This document shows, piece by piece, positions 7,533 through 14,128 of a stretch of DNA of 64,000 bases. The position numbers were made by a program, and so were the translations under genes. Positions within the stretch are counted from its first letter, which is position 1; every line of letters starts with the position of its first letter. The stretch covers positions 1 through 64,000 of the forward strand of contig JAAVWC010000016.1 in assembly GCA_023910675.1 (NCBI GenBank), in the 5' to 3' direction. Under the pieces are notes generated by a model, which was not told the origin of the DNA, ran no database searches, and saw nothing but the letters and a program-made list of their open reading frames with translations. The DNA is from Gemmatimonas sp. (GTDB lineage Bacteria; Gemmatimonadota; Gemmatimonadetes; Gemmatimonadales; Gemmatimonadaceae).

Positions 7533-8645
7533 ATGAAAATCTGCGTAGTAGCGGAAACGGCGCCGCGCGAAGCGCGCGTGGCGCTCATTCCCGATAGCGT
7601 GTCCAAGTTGGTGAAGGCGGGACACGAGGTAGTGGTCCAGCGCGGGGCGGGTGTGCCGGCCCATTTCGATGATGCGAGCTACGTGGCAGCGGGGGCATCG
7701 ATCGCCAATGACGCTGATACCGCACATGCGGGGGCGCAGGTGGTGGTGCGGGTGCAGCGCCCGGATGCCAGCGAGGTGACGCGCATTCCCGAAGGCGCGG
7801 TGCTGGTGAGCCTCATGGCACCAGCGACGGCCCACGCGACCGTAAACGCCCTCAGTCAGCGGCGCGTCACCTCGCTTGCGCTGGAGCTCGTGCCGCGCAT
7901 TACGCGGGCCCAGAGCATGGACGTGCTTTCGAGCCAAGCCACCGTGGCGGGGTACAAAGCGGTGCTCGTGGGCGCGTCGCTGATGCCCCGCTTCCTTCCC
8001 ATGCTCACCACGGCGGCAGGGAGCATCACTCCCGCCAAGGCATTCGTTATTGGCGCCGGCGTGGCGGGGCTGCAGGCGCTGGCCACGGCGCGCCGCTTGG
8101 GGGCGGTGACCAGTGGCTTTGACGTGCGCCCCGCCGCCGCCGAACAGGTGAAGTCGCTGGGTGCCTCGTTCGTGCAGAGCGACGTGGTTCGCGCGGCCAG
8201 TGAAGACAAGGGCGGCTACGCCAAGGCGCAGAGCGATGACGAAGCGGCGCGTACCCTCGCGACCATCGGCACGCATATCGTGTCGCAGGACCTCGTGGTG
8301 ACCACGGCGCAGATCCCGGGGCGTGCGGCGCCGCGGCTCATCACCGCCGACATGGTGCGCGCCATGAAGCCCGGCAGCGTCATCGTGGACCTCGCCGCCG
8401 AAACGGGCGGCAACTGCGAACTCACCGTGTTGGGTGAGACCGTGAACGAGAACGGTGTGTTGGTGGTGGGTGCGGCCAATTTGCCGGCCACCATGCCCAC
8501 GCACGCGAGTCAGATGTTCAGCCGCAACGTGCTCACGCTGCTCCAGCATCTCGTGAACACGGACGGCGTGCTCTCCATCGATCTTGCCGACGAAATCACC
8601 GGTGCGATGGTGCTCACGCACGCCGGCACCCCCAAGGGACGCTGA
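7533..8645 (+). CDS. pntAA: NAD(P) transhydrogenase subunit alpha, NAD-binding part
   Basis: A 370-residue cytosolic NAD(H)-binding domain I of the proton-translocating transhydrogenase, which moves hydride from NADH to NADP using the proton gradient. It starts MKICVVAETAPREARVALIP, typical of the alanine dehydrogenase/PNT family, has the Rossmann loop VIGAGVAGLQA near 175, and ends before the membrane part. As in Rhodospirillum, the alpha subunit is split, with the membrane segment encoded by the next gene three bases after this stop. Confidence 0.93.
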   Translation: MKICVVAETAPREARVALIPDSVSKLVKAGHEVVVQRGAGVPAHFDDASYVAAGASIANDADTAHAGAQVVVRVQRPDASEVTRIPEGAVLVSLMAPATAHATVNALSQRRVTSLALELVPRITRAQSMDVLSSQATVAGYKAVLVGASLMPRFLPMLTTAAGSITPAKAFVIGAGVAGLQALATARRLGAVTSGFDVRPAAAEQVKSLGASFVQSDVVRAASEDKGGYAKAQSDDEAARTLATIGTHIVSQDLVVTTAQIPGRAAPRLITADMVRAMKPGSVIVDLAAETGGNCELTVLGETVNENGVLVVGAANLPATMPTHASQMFSRNVLTLLQHLVNTDGVLSIDLADEITGAMVLTHAGTPKGR

Positions 8646-8647
8646 TC

Positions 8648-8981
8648 ATGTCGATGACCGGATTCTTTCAGCTGTACTGTGTTCATTCTCGCCGGCTTCG
8701 TCGGCTTTCTCGTCATTTCCCGTGTGCCGCATTTGCTGCATACGCCGCTCATGGCGGCCACGAACGCCATCAGCGGGATCTCGCTCGTGGGCTCCATCGT
8801 GCTCGCCGGCGGGCAGTATGGCAAGCTCCCCACCATTCTCGGCGCGATTGCCGTGGCGTGTGCGATGACCAACGTGGTGGGTGGGTTCATCATCACCGAC
8901 CGCATGCTCAATATGTTCAAGCGTCGTGACGATGCGCCCGCTGTGCCCGGCGCCACCGGCACCACGGATGGTGCGGCGTAA
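8648..8981 (+). CDS. pntAB: NAD(P) transhydrogenase alpha-2 membrane subunit (one apparent frameshift)
   Basis: PntAB supplies the small membrane domain of transhydrogenase. ATG 8648 gives MSMTGFFQLY, but the family sequence (FILAGFVGF, then LLHTPLMAATNAISG) continues in another frame. Dropping one base near 8677 restores a continuous 110-residue protein with three predicted membrane helices and the conserved HTPLM-TNAISG segment. Length 334 bp minus one equals 111 codons. A GTG at 8679 could start a truncated form, but it would lose the beginning of helix 1. The stop overlaps the pntB start by one base. Confidence 0.85.
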
Positions 8982-10396
8982 TGGAGAACGTGCAGGAGAT
9001 CCTTTCACAGGTCACGTACCTCGCGGCGTCGGTGCTCTTCATGTTGGGGCTGCGCAGTCTCACGCGCCCCGACGAAGCGCGACGCGGCATGCAGCTCGCC
9101 GCACTCGGCATGCTGCTCGCCATCATCGGCACCATGTTGCACCGTGAGATTCTCACGTACACGTGGATCGTCACGGGGCTAATCGTCGGTACGGTGGTGG
9201 GCTATCCGTTGGGCAAGTTCGTGCCCATGACGGCCATGCCGCAGCGCATTGCGTTCTCGCACATGTTCGGCGCGCTCGCGGCGACGCTCGTGGGCATTGG
9301 CGAGTTCTATCACATGTACCAGGGCGATCACCCCACTAACCCGTCGGCCGCCGACGCGCGCTTCAAGATGGCGGCGCTGGGGTTCGAGGTGCTCTTCGGG
9401 GCACTCACGGTGTCGGGCTCCTTCATGGCGTTCGGCAAGCTGCAGGAGTTCATTACGGGGCGCCCGGTCACCTTCAAGGGACAAAACTTTCTCAACGCGC
9501 TGCTGTTTCTGGTGGCGGTGGGATGCTTCGGGTGGTTGGTGTACGAGCCGAGCAATGTGTTGGCGTTCTACGTCATGGTGGCCATTGCGTTCGCCATCGG
9601 CTTCATGCTCGTGCTCCCCATTGGCGGCGCCGACATGCCGGTGGTGGTGTCGCTGCTCAACTCGTACGCGGGGCTCGCGGCGAGTGCGACGGGCTTTGCG
9701 ATCGGCAACAACGTGCTCATCATCGCCGGCGCGCTCGACGGCGCGAGTGGGTTCATTCTCTCCATCGTGATGTCGAAGGCGATGAACCGATCGTTCGGCA
9801 ACGTGCTCTTTGGCGCGTTCGGGTCGGCGGGCGGTGCGGTGAGTGGCAAGACCTCCGAAGGGCTGACCGCCAGGAGTGTGACTGCCGAAGACGCTGCGGT
9901 GCAGCTGGCGTTCGCGCAGAAGGTGGTGATCGTACCGGGCTACGGCATGGCCGTGTCACAGGCACAGCATCAGGTCCGTGAGCTCGCCGAACTGATCGAG
10001 AAGAAGGGTGGCGAAGTGCGCTACGCCATTCACCCCGTGGCGGGGCGCATGCCCGGGCACATGAACGTGCTGCTCGCCGAAGCGAACGTGCCGTACGACC
10101 GCATGTACGACATGGACGAGATCAACGAGTCGTTCGCCGAGGTCGATGTCGCGGTGGTGATCGGCGCGAACGACGTGGTGAACCCGGCGGCCAAAACCGA
10201 CCCCGCGAGTCCCATTTACGGCATGCCCATTCTACGGGTGAACGAAGCGCGGCAGATCATCGTGCTCAAGCGGTCGATGAACGCGGGCTTTGCGGGCATC
10301 GAGAACGAGCTGTTTTACGACGACAAGACGAGCATGCTGTTCGGGGATGCGAAGGGGAGCATTACCAAGGTCATTAGCGAAATCAAACAGCTGTAG
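8981..10396 (+). CDS. pntB: NAD(P) transhydrogenase subunit beta
   Basis: A 471-residue beta subunit. The N-terminal two thirds are hydrophobic with about eight to nine membrane helices forming the proton channel with PntAB. The C-terminal 180 residues form the NADP-binding domain III, seen in VIVPGYGMAVSQAQH, HPVAGRMPGHMNVLLAEA and VIGANDVVNPAA. It completes the pntAA-pntAB-pntB operon (no gaps), which should supply NADPH. A palindromic repeat begins 8 bp after the stop and could end transcription. Confidence 0.95.
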   Translation: MENVQEILSQVTYLAASVLFMLGLRSLTRPDEARRGMQLAALGMLLAIIGTMLHREILTYTWIVTGLIVGTVVGYPLGKFVPMTAMPQRIAFSHMFGALAATLVGIGEFYHMYQGDHPTNPSAADARFKMAALGFEVLFGALTVSGSFMAFGKLQEFITGRPVTFKGQNFLNALLFLVAVGCFGWLVYEPSNVLAFYVMVAIAFAIGFMLVLPIGGADMPVVVSLLNSYAGLAASATGFAIGNNVLIIAGALDGASGFILSIVMSKAMNRSFGNVLFGAFGSAGGAVSGKTSEGLTARSVTAEDAAVQLAFAQKVVIVPGYGMAVSQAQHQVRELAELIEKKGGEVRYAIHPVAGRMPGHMNVLLAEANVPYDRMYDMDEINESFAEVDVAVVIGANDVVNPAAKTDPASPIYGMPILRVNEARQIIVLKRSMNAGFAGIENELFYDDKTSMLFGDAKGSITKVISEIKQL

Positions 10397-10403
10397 GCCA
10401 CTG

Positions 10404-10608
10404 CGGTTGGTTGGTCCGGCGCTCTACTGGCGCCGGCTCTAGCCCTCAGGGGGAAGAACGCAAGAGCACAGGGAGTAGCGCGGTGCCGTCCACATGCGAA
10501 CTGCAGTTGCGGTGCATGTGAATGGATCCGCGCTTTCCCCTATCTCCTTACGTTCTTTCCCCTGAGGGCTAGATCCGTCGGCCAGTAAACCGCCGGACCA
10601 AACAACCG
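10404..10608. repeat. Large palindromic repeat, copy 2
   Basis: About 205 bp and strongly self-complementary, with arms TTGGTCCGGCG, then TAGCCCTCAGGG and AAGAACGcAAGaG, ending at AGCGCGG. The arms match those of copy 1 at 3579-3772 apart from scattered substitutions, and the loop sequence is unrelated. It starts 8 bp after pntB and ends 102 bp before the desaturase gene. Confidence 0.75.
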
Positions 10609-10709
10609 TCGTTCAAACAGCCCCGTTGGCACGCCCCGCGACACACTGGTAACTTCCCAATCCTCGTTCTCGAACGCCGGGGCGAGGCGCACACCGTTTT
10701 GGAGCTGTC

Positions 10710-11483
10710 ATGCCCGAGTTTGGAAGTTGGGGAACCGACTGGTGGAAGCCAGTCGTATTCGTGCTGGTTGCCGGTCATCTCACCAACATCTGCGTCACGC
10801 TGTTCCTGCACCGTTCGCAGACACATCGCAGCGTCGTGTTTCATCGCCTCGTCGAGATGCCGATGCGCGTGTGGTTGTGGCTCACCACGGCCACGAAGAC
10901 CAAGGAGTGGGTGGCGTGTCATCGCAAGCACCACGCGTTCGCCGACCGCGAAGGCGATCCGCATAGCCCCGTCGTCGAAGGGCTGCGCAACATTCTCCTC
11001 AAGGGCGCCTTCTACTACCGCAATGCGGTGCGGCAACCCGGCATGCTCGACAAGTACGGCAAGGGCACGCCCGATGATTGGATAGAGCGCCATCTGCTCG
11101 ACAAGCGCTCCAACATCGGCATCTTCTTCATGCTCGCCATCAACATCTGGCTCTTCGGCTGGTTCATCGGCCCCGTGGTGTGGGGCATTCAGATGATCTG
11201 GATTCCGTTCTGGGCTGCCGGTATCGTGAATGGCGTTGGGCATGCGCTCGGCTACCGCAATCACGACGTGAAGGATGAGAGCCGCAACATCTCGCCTATC
11301 GCCATCATCATCGCCGGCGAAGAGCTGCACAACAATCATCACGCCGATCCGCACAGTGCGAAGTTCGCGCATCGCTGGTTCGAGTTCGACATCGGCTGGA
11401 TGTACATAAAGCTTCTTTCACTTTTCGGACTCGCCGAAGTGAAGTACGCGCGCGTTGGCGCGCATGTCCGCGTCGCGGAGTAA
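10710..11483 (+). CDS. Membrane fatty-acid (acyl-CoA delta-9 type) desaturase
   Basis: A 257-residue integral membrane di-iron desaturase. The three histidine boxes are complete: HRSQTH (34-39), HRKHH (71-75) and HNNHH (207-211). Hydrophobic segments at about 14-34 and 137-178 give the usual two hairpins. The family introduces a cis double bond into saturated acyl chains, adjusting membrane fluidity. ATG 10710 is the only sensible start. It is followed six bases later by the YggX-like gene and may share its transcript. Confidence 0.9.
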   Translation: MPEFGSWGTDWWKPVVFVLVAGHLTNICVTLFLHRSQTHRSVVFHRLVEMPMRVWLWLTTATKTKEWVACHRKHHAFADREGDPHSPVVEGLRNILLKGAFYYRNAVRQPGMLDKYGKGTPDDWIERHLLDKRSNIGIFFMLAINIWLFGWFIGPVVWGIQMIWIPFWAAGIVNGVGHALGYRNHDVKDESRNISPIAIIIAGEELHNNHHADPHSAKFAHRWFEFDIGWMYIKLLSLFGLAEVKYARVGAHVRVAE

Positions 11484-11488
11484 CCGTC

Positions 11489-11768
11489 ATGGCTGATGTA
11501 ACCTGTGCGCGCTGCGGCACGACCCGCGAAGGCTTCGAGCGTCCGCCGTTCCCGGGCGCGATCGGCGCGCGCGTGGTCACGGAAATCTGCAAAGACTGCT
11601 GGGCGCAGTGGCTCAAGCAGCAGACCATGCTCATCAATCACTACGGGCTGAACGTCATGGACCCCCAGGCGCGGACGTTCCTCACAGCGCAACATGGACG
11701 CCTTCCTGTTCAAGGGCGGCCAGGCCGACGAAGTGGATACCAGCAAGCAGGGCACGATCACCCACTGA
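11489..11768 (+). CDS. YggX-like Fe(II)-trafficking protein with two CxxC pairs (one apparent frameshift)
   Basis: The core RPPFPGAIGARV, then WAQWLKQQTMLINHYGLNV and DPQARTFL, matches the YggX family, which protects iron-sulfur enzymes from oxidation. Removing one base near 11692 joins this to MDAFLFKGGQ and a stop at 11768, giving 92 residues, the usual family length. Unusually, it carries Cys6-x2-Cys9 and Cys34-x2-Cys37, a potential zinc or iron ribbon, whereas classical YggX has a single N-terminal cysteine. A hairpin terminator follows. Read without correction, the frame runs on through the next genes, which I regard as an artefact. Confidence 0.8.
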
Positions 11769-11793
11769 GTCACGGCCGCAACCGGACACGCGA

Positions 11794-11833
11794 AACGCCC
11801 CTGCCGATGACACTCGGCGGGGGCGTTCTGTTT
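11794..11833 (+). terminator. Rho-independent terminator after the YggX-like gene
   Basis: AACGCCCCTGCCGA (11794-11807) pairs with TCGGCGGGGGCGTT (11814-11827), with one G-T wobble and a 6 base loop, followed by CTGTTT. It lies between convergent genes. Confidence 0.75.
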
Positions 11834-11881
11834 CGGGGCCTGATGCGCACAGCTGGGGAGCTCCCTGCGCGCATCAAGCCG

Positions 11882-12094
11882 TCAGTTCACGCCGGCGATG
11901 TAGCGGGCCAACCGACCACAGCTCGTGCATTTGAGCGTCACATGCGAGTGCTGCTGCGGCGGGGAGCCGGCTGGGTCACGGTCGATCTGACCTTCGCAGC
12001 TCGGGCAGCTCAGGGGGAGTCCAGTACGATCGGCTGCAATGAGGTGCAGCGCCTGCGCTGGGTTGTACGTGTTCGGTCGGGGCTTACGCATCAC
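11882..12094 (-). CDS. Small zinc-ribbon protein
   Basis: A 70-residue protein starting MMRKPRPNTYNP with two well-spaced CxxC pairs (CPSC at about 30-33 and CTSCGR at 56-61). This is a zinc-ribbon fold without an assigned family. It is convergent with the YggX-like gene, and a putative MarR-family gene lies behind it on the opposite strand. Start may be the first or second ATG (12094 or 12091). Function unknown; size and cysteine pattern suit a nucleic-acid-binding or regulatory small protein. Confidence 0.55.
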   Translation of the reverse strand: MMRKPRPNTYNPAQALHLIAADRTGLPLSCPSCEGQIDRDPAGSPPQQHSHVTLKCTSCGRLARYIAGVN

Positions 12095-12409
12095 GCCTCC
12101 ACGGAAGGTGCGCTACCTGCGGAATTCGGGGCAGCGAGGGAAAGCTATAACCACCATTTTTTTTGCAACACTACTCCTCGTATCTTTGCGGTAACAGGTA
12201 ACCGTCTTTACTCCCTTTCGGTGGATTTTCCCTCGGAACGACCGGTCCACTATTCATTAGGACTCGGGCTCTTACACCGCAGTTTTGGGCAAAATCGACG
12301 TCAGCCCAAACAGTCGTCGCATTCCTCGGCCCACGCCGGAGGGCTGAGAGGCCCCCAGCACTCCGCTTCCACCCTTGCGCAAAAAAGCCGGAACGCTGAG
12401 GCTTCCCCT
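12095..12409. other. Divergent intergenic region with an inverted repeat
   Basis: This 315 bp stretch separates the small zinc-ribbon gene (minus) from the marR gene (plus). It includes an A/T-rich patch around 12150-12190. The inverted repeat TTTGGGC (12284-12290) and GCCCAAA (12304-12310) flanks a central GACGTC. That repeat, about 100 bp before marR, is a reasonable candidate for a MarR autoregulatory site. Confidence 0.35.
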
Positions 12410-12917
12410 ATGGCTACCACCACCCGTCCCCAGCAAGACCCAGCTCCCCACGCCGAGGCGCACGAGCCGGCCCTCGACGAGCACACGGCATCCGCATTGC
12501 GCCTGTGGGTCATCATGTCCCGCGCGCAGGCGGCGGTGACAGCCCAGGCCTCCGCCGACGTGGCGCGGCACGGCCTTACCCTCGCCGAGTTCGGCATTAT
12601 CGAGGCGCTCTACCACCGTGGCCCGATGCTCCTGGGGGAGGTGCAGAAGCGCATTCTCGTCTCCAGCGGTGGCATCACCTTTCTGGTGGACCGGCTCACC
12701 GCCAAGGGGCTCGTCGAGCGGCGCAGCTGCGAGTACGATCGCCGCGCCCGCTATGCCGCCCTCACCGATAAGGGCACGGCGCTCGTCGCGGAGATCTTCC
12801 CTGAGCATGCCGCCGTTGTTGCGCGCGCCATGGCCGCTGATCACTCCCGACGAGCAGCAGCAGGTGGCCAACGCCCTGCGCACCGTCGGACGCGCCGCCG
12901 CCGGGCTGAACACGTAA
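12410..12917 (+). CDS. MarR-family transcriptional regulator (one apparent frameshift)
   Basis: The winged-helix core is clear: LTLAEFGIIEALYHRGPMLLGEVQ, the recognition region SSGGITFLVDRL, and the wing RRSCEYDRRARYAALTDKG. One extra base near 12833 shifts the frame; removing it appends PLITPDEQQQVANAL to a stop at 12915-12917, giving 168 residues, normal for MarR. MarR proteins bind palindromic DNA as dimers and release it on binding phenolic or oxidising ligands. The local target and ligand are unknown. ATG 12410 is chosen; the reading frame is open upstream only because of the YggX frameshift. Confidence 0.82.
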
Positions 12918-12949
12918 CGGCAGTTCCCCCGCCCCTGCTGTCTACAACT

Positions 12950-13007
12950 CTGCCGTCTGCTGTCTCGGCGCGATTTCGCCGCATCGCGCCGAGACGGCAG
13001 ACGGCAG
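12950..13007. terminator. Strong hairpin between convergent genes
   Basis: A 25 bp stem (12950-12974 with 12983-13007, one mismatch) and an 8 base loop. It has no U-tract. It lies between marR and the convergent TolB-like gene and probably insulates both transcripts. Confidence 0.55.
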
Positions 13008-13042
13008 CCACTCAGACGGCAGGAGCGCAGTAATGCTGCGAA

Positions 13043-14128
13043 CTATTTCCACTCTGCCACGAACAGGTTCGTTTCCCCTTCCTTCGTGGCGCCGCGATTG
13101 CTGGCGAAAATCAGCTTCTTGCCATCGGGGCTGAACATCGGGAAGCCGTCGAACTCGGGGTTCGTGGTGATCTGCGTGAGATCACTGCCGTCGAGCGCCA
13201 CGGTGTACAAGTCGAAGTTGCGGCTGCGCGGATTCTTGTGATTCGACGAAAAAATGATATGCCGTCCGTCGGGGGTCCACGACGGACCGAAGTTCGCGCC
13301 CCCCAGCTTCGTGATCTGCCGCTGATCGCCGCCGTCGGCGTTCATGACGAATAGCTCCATGCGGTTGGGGACGGATCATGCGCTTGGCGAGCAGATCCTG
13401 ATATGCCTTGAGCTCGGCCGGATTGTCGTAGTGCCACGCGCGATACACGATTTTGGTGCCATCGGGGCTCCACCACGGTCCACCATCGTAGCCCGGCGTC
13501 GTCGTCAGACGCTTCACGTTGGTGCCGTCGACGTTCATGGTGTAAATGTCCGAGGTCTCCGTCCTTGAGACTCGTGAACACGATGCGCTTGCCCGTCGGG
13601 ACTGAGCACCCCTTCGGCGGTGTACACGCCGTAGTTCGTGAGCCGCTTCATGTTCTTGCCGTCGATATCCGTCGTGTAGATGTCGTACGGGTCGATGCCC
13701 CACACATAGCCGGCCGACGGATCGGGCTTCACGGGACACGCGGTATCGGCGTGATGCGTGGCGCCGAAGAACAGCCGCTTGCTGCCGGGGAGGAACCACC
13801 CGCACGTGGTCTTGCCGCCGCGTGAGACCTTCGTGAGCTCGCTGCCGTCGGCGCGCATGACGTACTGCTGATCGCAGGCGCGTCCGTCGCGGGTGCTCTG
13901 GAAAGTGATGTACTTGCCGTCGGCGCTGAAATAGGCCTCGGCGTTTTCTCCACCGTCGGTGAGCTGCAGCAAGTTGGCGAGGTGCGCTTCCCCCTCACTC
14001 GCCGCAATGGGGCGGCGCAGCGGCTGCGCGCTGGACGAGGCGGGGGCGGGCTGGCTGCTGCACGCGGCCATCATCGAGGCCGCGAGCATGGCGGCGGCTA
14101 CGGAAATCCGGTGGGTGGGTGTCGACAT
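13043..14128 (-). CDS. TolB-like beta-propeller lipoprotein (three apparent frameshifts)
   Basis: The protein begins MSTPTHRISVAAAMLAASMMAACSS, a lipoprotein signal with the lipobox cysteine at about 22. The rest is a chain of WD40/PD40 repeats of TolB type (AYFSADGKYITFQSTRDG, WWSPDGTKIVY, PSWTPDGRHIIF, MFSPDGKKLIF). Three single-base insertions (near 13368, 13560 and 13606) break the frame; removal yields 360 residues. Such proteins are periplasmic or outer-membrane-anchored and may bind partner proteins. It resembles TolB-type propellers annotated as biopolymer transporters, but there is no tol-pal context here. Confidence 0.75.

Follow-up and report, generated by a model that had tools for sequence, protein, structure and literature searches.

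A YggX form with four conserved cysteines in Gemmatimonadota, probably a treble-clef zinc finger with all ligand positions filled

Introduction

In a 64,000-nucleotide stretch of DNA from a Gemmatimonas sp. (the window hereafter), a YggX-like gene encodes two CxxC pairs within its first 37 codons, which raises the question of what four cysteines would do in a protein of this family. For Salmonella YggX, binding of Fe(II) and protection of Fe-S clusters have been reported (PMC1360075), the binding being weak, with a Kd of about 1e-5 to 1e-6 M (PMC3989283). A cysteine in the N-terminal region is described as critical, Cys-7 being called essential in a title cited by the same source, which also places homologues outside the gammaproteobacteria, for instance in Bacillus subtilis (PMC11078426). 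The role of YggX is unsettled: described as an iron carrier, the protein reportedly binds Fe(II) only weakly. A complete site of four cysteines, or of three cysteines and a histidine, would offer a direct test of that role.

Results

The yggX gene of the window

The gene and its four cysteine codons are placed as follows.

11489..11768, + strand: yggX / Iron_traffic (PF04362) gene, with ATG start at 11489 and native stop TGA at 11766-11768; one extra base at 11686 breaks the frame
11504..11506, + strand: Cys6 codon, aligned with Cys-7 of Salmonella YggX
11513..11515, + strand: Cys9 codon; this position is His in one Gemmatimonadota clade
11588..11590, + strand: Cys34 codon, immediately before the predicted long helix
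11597..11599, + strand: Cys37 codon, in the first turn of the predicted long helix and followed by Trp38

Translation from 11489 gives cysteines at residues 6, 9, 34 and 37, an exact CxxC-x24-CxxC, so that the C6xxC9 and C34xxC37 pairs described in the earlier note are indeed present. The protein matches Pfam Iron_traffic at 80.1 bits (cut-off 27) and NCBIfam PRK05408, ‘oxidative damage protection protein’, at 87.5 bits (cut-off 74), and this single gene accounts for the PF04362 matches in the genome. Its residue 6 is aligned with residue 7 of the 1xs8 chain, the equivalent of Salmonella Cys-7 thus being present.

The same note had taken the conserved YggX core to be intact, which does not hold for the deposited sequence. 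The gene spans 280 bases, a number not divisible by three; the frame is lost past residue 65-66, and the conserved tail (MDAFLF...) lies in another frame that runs to the stop at 11766-11768. Alignment with close relatives places one surplus base at 11686. The break could be real, leaving a yggX pseudogene or giving rise to a fused 514-residue protein, and the deposited sequence does carry both the extra base and, when the frame is read on past the break, an open reading frame of 514 residues. We consider this very unlikely. The gene is present in 23 of the 24 other genomes of the genus that were searched, and it is unbroken in all 22 that are readable through the site, the 23rd being N-masked there. 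In addition, a comparison of the stretch 8502-14103 with the relative L031 yields 15 indels, of which 9 are extra single bases in the window and 6 are extra bases in L031, a pattern that points to uncorrected sequence errors. Several of these extra bases lie close to or within genes.

8678, 11686, 12837, 13371, 13551 and 13594: extra single bases in the window relative to L031, in or near reading frames

Besides yggX, the genes concerned are a MarR-like gene and, as judged by eye from the list of open reading frames, a small ORF between two transhydrogenase genes and a PD40-like gene. Since all 22 readable relatives are unbroken and similar extra bases occur in other genes of the window, the base at 11686 is probably a sequence error and not biology, and a pseudogene or fusion protein is disfavoured. 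The four cysteines are unaffected by the break. The assembly of this stretch looks indel-prone, and other broken genes in the window should be read with care.

Four ligand positions across Gemmatimonadota

YggX is present in 246 of 298 genomes of the window's phylum. The set of loci that we read residue by residue comprises 110 Gemmatimonadota loci, the window's own included; 59 were chosen because a search with the fixed-spacing pattern had missed them. These came from 61 genomes, picked by eye as having YggX and no fixed-spacing pattern at that place, which were searched again; two (G091 and G152) gave no locus. In total, 92 of the 110 loci have the CxxC/CxxC arrangement, with 23-26 residues between the pairs, and another 14 have CxxH/CxxC. 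Three (L182, L185 and L191) have CxxP/CxxC, in the form CCRP with a second cysteine beside Cys6, and the remaining locus is masked at position 9 and unreadable there. The second pair, C34xxC37 followed by Trp, is kept in all 110. In the three CxxP loci the fourth ligand appears, from the sequence, to be lost or moved.

Relatives had been singled out beforehand as the place where the cysteines might prove absent. They keep cysteine at all four ligand positions, or histidine at position 9, in 106 of the 110 loci, and the finding survived. A second set, the best 80 of 590 confirmed loci on named contigs (from at least 594 stretches), shares organisms with the first and divides in the same manner: four cysteines are found in 63 loci, 60 with Gemmatimonadota-type titles and 3 titled ‘bacterium’ only, and the first cysteine alone in 17, all with proteobacterial titles. 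At the DNA level, both TGT and TGC are used at each of the four cysteine positions among 150 distinct rows, a count that skips four further rows, one masked and three CxxP. Since the Cys/His ligands are kept in 106 of 110 loci with both codons in use at every position, the conservation exceeds what chance can explain. The window gene had been presented as peculiar. The presence of four-cysteine loci across Gemmatimonadota rules out a peculiarity of one genome, and the four-cysteine protein is instead the usual YggX of this phylum.

A single cysteine in Pseudomonadota

The picture differs in Pseudomonadota, for which 47 loci were read: 17 from the named-contig set and 30 others, with one gene counted twice (as L166 and as L092). 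Of the four cysteines, only the first, which aligns with Salmonella Cys-7, is kept, in 47 of 47. All have Ser at position 34. Ala is found at position 37 in 45 of them and Gly in the other 2, and position 9 is occupied by Leu (35 loci), Tyr (8), Phe (2), Gln (1) or His (1). The 30 loci were read from a sample of 200 genomes of the phylum to which the Tepidiphilus genome G312 belongs, 51 of which have YggX, and every one of the 30 has Ser at 34 and Ala at 37. None of the 51 YggX places coincides with a match to the four-cysteine pattern, in a by-eye comparison at spacing 24 that would let other spacings escape. The four-cysteine pattern does occur in this sample, at 25 places in 22 of the 200 genomes, and these were considered as candidate YggX genes; none lies at a YggX place, and no match to the YggX family was obtained from the 10 loci retrieved for them.

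YggX is also encountered outside bacterial chromosomes. Ser and Ala also occupy positions 34 and 37 in four loci from viral contigs. A one-cysteine protein (100.7 bits) is carried by viral contigs of 112-342 kb and is identical in L133, L134 and L135; in L134:463-5102 it is flanked by a SpoVR-like gene and a gene for a cation-efflux transporter, with epimerase-like and deformylase-like ORFs, both recognised by eye, on the same contig. Plasmid records gave 39 YggX matches and phage records 3, all below 60% identity. One record labelled ‘Acinetobacter phage MD-2021a’ (L235, CAKLQH020000023.1) shows, over the 4.2 kb inspected, argH, phoU, tolC and a gene annotated as Fe(2+)-trafficking, and looks like a bacterial contig filed as phage.

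The Cys-to-His exchange and the tree

In a tree of 194 rows, the 14 CxxH and 3 CxxP rows form one clade with support 100/100. On one side of a single branch (100/94) stand 44 Pseudomonadota rows together with one viral row, and this side adjoins two long-branched four-cysteine Gemmatimonadota rows, L155 and L159. Since the Pseudomonadota rows fall together in this way, one change of state would suffice between the four-cysteine and the one-cysteine forms. We infer a loss in Pseudomonadota, from four cysteines to one, rather than a gain in Gemmatimonadota, and do so with reserve because the tree is unrooted, is built from few columns, has an unsettled bootstrap and samples two phyla.

The exchange at position 9 bears on what the cysteines are for. 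CxxC is a common redox motif, and the two pairs might be redox-active thiols, serving as a disulphide switch or a reductase, and not a metal site at all. A zinc site tolerates the replacement of one cysteine by histidine while the other three ligands are kept, but a dithiol redox site does not. In 14 of the 110 loci exactly this combination is seen, CxxH with C34xxC37 retained, and the loss of one thiol while the rest are kept fits a metal better; likewise, the residues at 9, 34 and 37 change together from one sampled phylum to the other. The reported protection against oxidative damage by this family (PMC1360075) would agree with a redox function, which we nevertheless regard as hardly likely at all. 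The exchange within one clade thus favours a zinc-type site over a redox pair. As a counterpoint to this hint, the ligand is apparently lost or moved in the three CxxP loci, and His is present at position 9 of one Pseudomonadota locus whose only other ligand is Cys6, so that histidine can, to judge from this sequence, arise there without a full site.

Predicted fold and structural matches

In place of the window gene with its broken frame, the 92-residue protein of the relative L031, which differs from the window protein at one residue over the 66 in-frame residues, was used for an AlphaFold model built on a 47-sequence alignment. Trp38 is invariant across the 47 rows of the alignment, which L031 heads. 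The model has a mean pLDDT of 85, with values of 90-97 per ten residues across residues 1-70, and contains strands at 3-5 and 12-14 and helices at 23-32, 35-52 and 59-73. C6 and C9 are placed in the hairpin turn between the two strands, C34 just before and C37 within helix 35-52, and the additional helix 23-32 lies between the pairs. Structure comparison returns the family itself: 1t07 (Z 12.7, rmsd 1.9, 78 aligned), E. coli YggX 1yhd (Z 12.3, rmsd 2.1, 78 aligned), 1xs8 (Z 10.1) and 2mzy (Z 9.3). The best row that is not YggX reaches Z 2.7, and in the structure searches with this model the confident matches were YggX entries only, other Foldseek matches having E >1.

The earlier note had suggested that a four-cysteine site would allow tight binding of zinc or iron and could turn the proposed iron-trafficking mechanism into a metal-ribbon one. 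In zinc ribbons, both pairs sit in beta-knuckles. The likeness to a zinc ribbon or a rubredoxin consists in the two CxxC pairs, but in the L031 model the second pair opens helix 35-52 and does not form a second beta-knuckle, and a zinc ribbon or rubredoxin was rejected as the layout. What the predicted secondary structure resembles is a treble clef, with which it shares a CxxC in a hairpin turn and a CxxC at a helix start. The ribbon label is therefore the part of the suggestion that fails, while the idea of one site stands, the cysteines being kept together in the Gemmatimonadota loci read and, all but the first, absent together in the Pseudomonadota loci read, and the pairs being placed as in treble clefs that hold one metal. 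Conservation of the treble-clef ligands as Cys/His holds in the 106 of 110 Gemmatimonadota loci, but not in the 47 Pseudomonadota loci read. That the two pairs would be close in space is suggested by the predicted layout together with the published class of 1YHD: a 2016 survey assigns E. coli YggX to the treble clefs and notes that its solved structure is without zinc, as are the structurally characterised homologues of such newly found treble-clef members (Kaur and Subramanian, PMC4999995). Section 5 of that survey, which leaves the description of YggX to Supplementary File 2, makes no mention of the ligand-complete Gemmatimonadota form. A literature search on YggX gave no paper on a four-cysteine YggX among the matches listed, and the supplement of the survey may note the form.

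The metal could also be iron, held in an Fe(Cys)4 site of the rubredoxin type or in a labile Fe-S cluster, in which case the protein would be a true high-affinity iron carrier or a redox protein. YggX is annotated as Fe(2+)-trafficking, and the Salmonella protein is reported to bind Fe(II), if weakly (PMC3989283). Among the 47 members, Pfam zinc-finger families are matched only weakly, zf_Tbcl_2 by 7 (best E 0.053) and FdhE_C by 8 (best E 0.0019). The latter counts for iron, since E. coli FdhE binds iron. In the model, however, the second pair opens a helix as in treble clefs, unlike the two knuckles of the rubredoxin layout, and Cys9 is replaced by His in one well-supported clade, an exchange of Cys for His being most typical of zinc sites. 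An iron site thus seems unlikely to us.

Gene neighbourhood

Two neighbouring genes were considered in connection with yggX.

10710..11483, + strand: fatty acid desaturase, DesA-family-like, ending 5 bases upstream of yggX; His boxes recognised by eye
11882-12094, - strand: 70-residue protein that contains two CxxC pairs and has the almost invariant start MRKPRPNTYNPAQALHLIA; only weak Pfam matches

The desaturase scores 365 bits against an NCBIfam DesA-type model, below the cut-off of 400, and has no Pfam match. Among the 63 four-cysteine named loci (from the best 80 of 590), a desaturase match is found in 23, some of the others having little upstream sequence, and in 22 it ends within about 250 bases upstream of yggX on the same strand. 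The two genes may be co-transcribed. A scan of 10350-12350 revealed no promoter- or terminator-like site. A link between YggX and a di-iron membrane desaturase is possible and is offered as a lead for a partner only. The 70-residue protein, which is found near yggX in 50 of the 110 loci L001-L110 (the window's own included, and some organisms represented twice), appears to be a conserved small zinc-ribbon-like protein.

Discussion

We consider it likely, on the basis of sequence and a predicted fold, that this gene encodes the Gemmatimonadota form of YggX, a treble-clef zinc finger in which all four ligand positions are filled. A single zinc ion bound by four thiolates, those of C6 and C9 in the N-terminal hairpin turn and those of C34 and C37 where the second helix begins, would most likely hold the hairpin onto the helix. 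The protein would otherwise fulfil the presumed usual role of YggX, limiting oxidative damage and handling Fe(II) weakly, through the conserved residues W38, W41, Q45, I49, N50 and L54. The E. coli and Salmonella form lacks three of the four ligands and retains the first, Cys-7. This reading draws directly on the presence of the four ligand positions and the way they are conserved together, on the replacement of Cys by His in one clade, on the difference between the two phyla and on the fold predicted for L031; from these we infer metal binding, the identity of the metal as zinc and its structural role.

The closest known proteins are those of E. coli, Salmonella and Pseudomonas (PF04362; 1yhd, 1xs8, 1t07 and 2mzy). 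They share the family, by both Pfam and NCBIfam, the fold, as predicted for L031, the N-terminal cysteine and the W..W...Q...IN core, which continues as INH in the aligned Gemmatimonadota rows (INE in L155 and L159) and as INE in Pseudomonadota rows. Gemmatimonadota YggX can accordingly be described, as far as sequence and model allow, as a variant with all ligands present in a family whose treble-clef fold had been recognised before. One could speculate further that YggX was ancestrally a zinc treble clef, that the full site was retained in Gemmatimonadota and reduced by three ligands in the proteobacterial line, so that Salmonella Cys-7 would be all that is left of a zinc site and weak iron binding would be derived, and that the Gemmatimonadaceae form may serve the upstream desaturase; this is a tentative proposal, possible but on balance improbable.

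For the family, the finding matters in two respects. In Gemmatimonadota, the label ‘Fe(2+)-trafficking’ is taken from relatives whose metal-site residues differ. Furthermore, if the four-cysteine YggX were to bind zinc tightly and to complement a yggX mutant, Cys-7 could be read as belonging to an old structural site, and not as an iron ligand.
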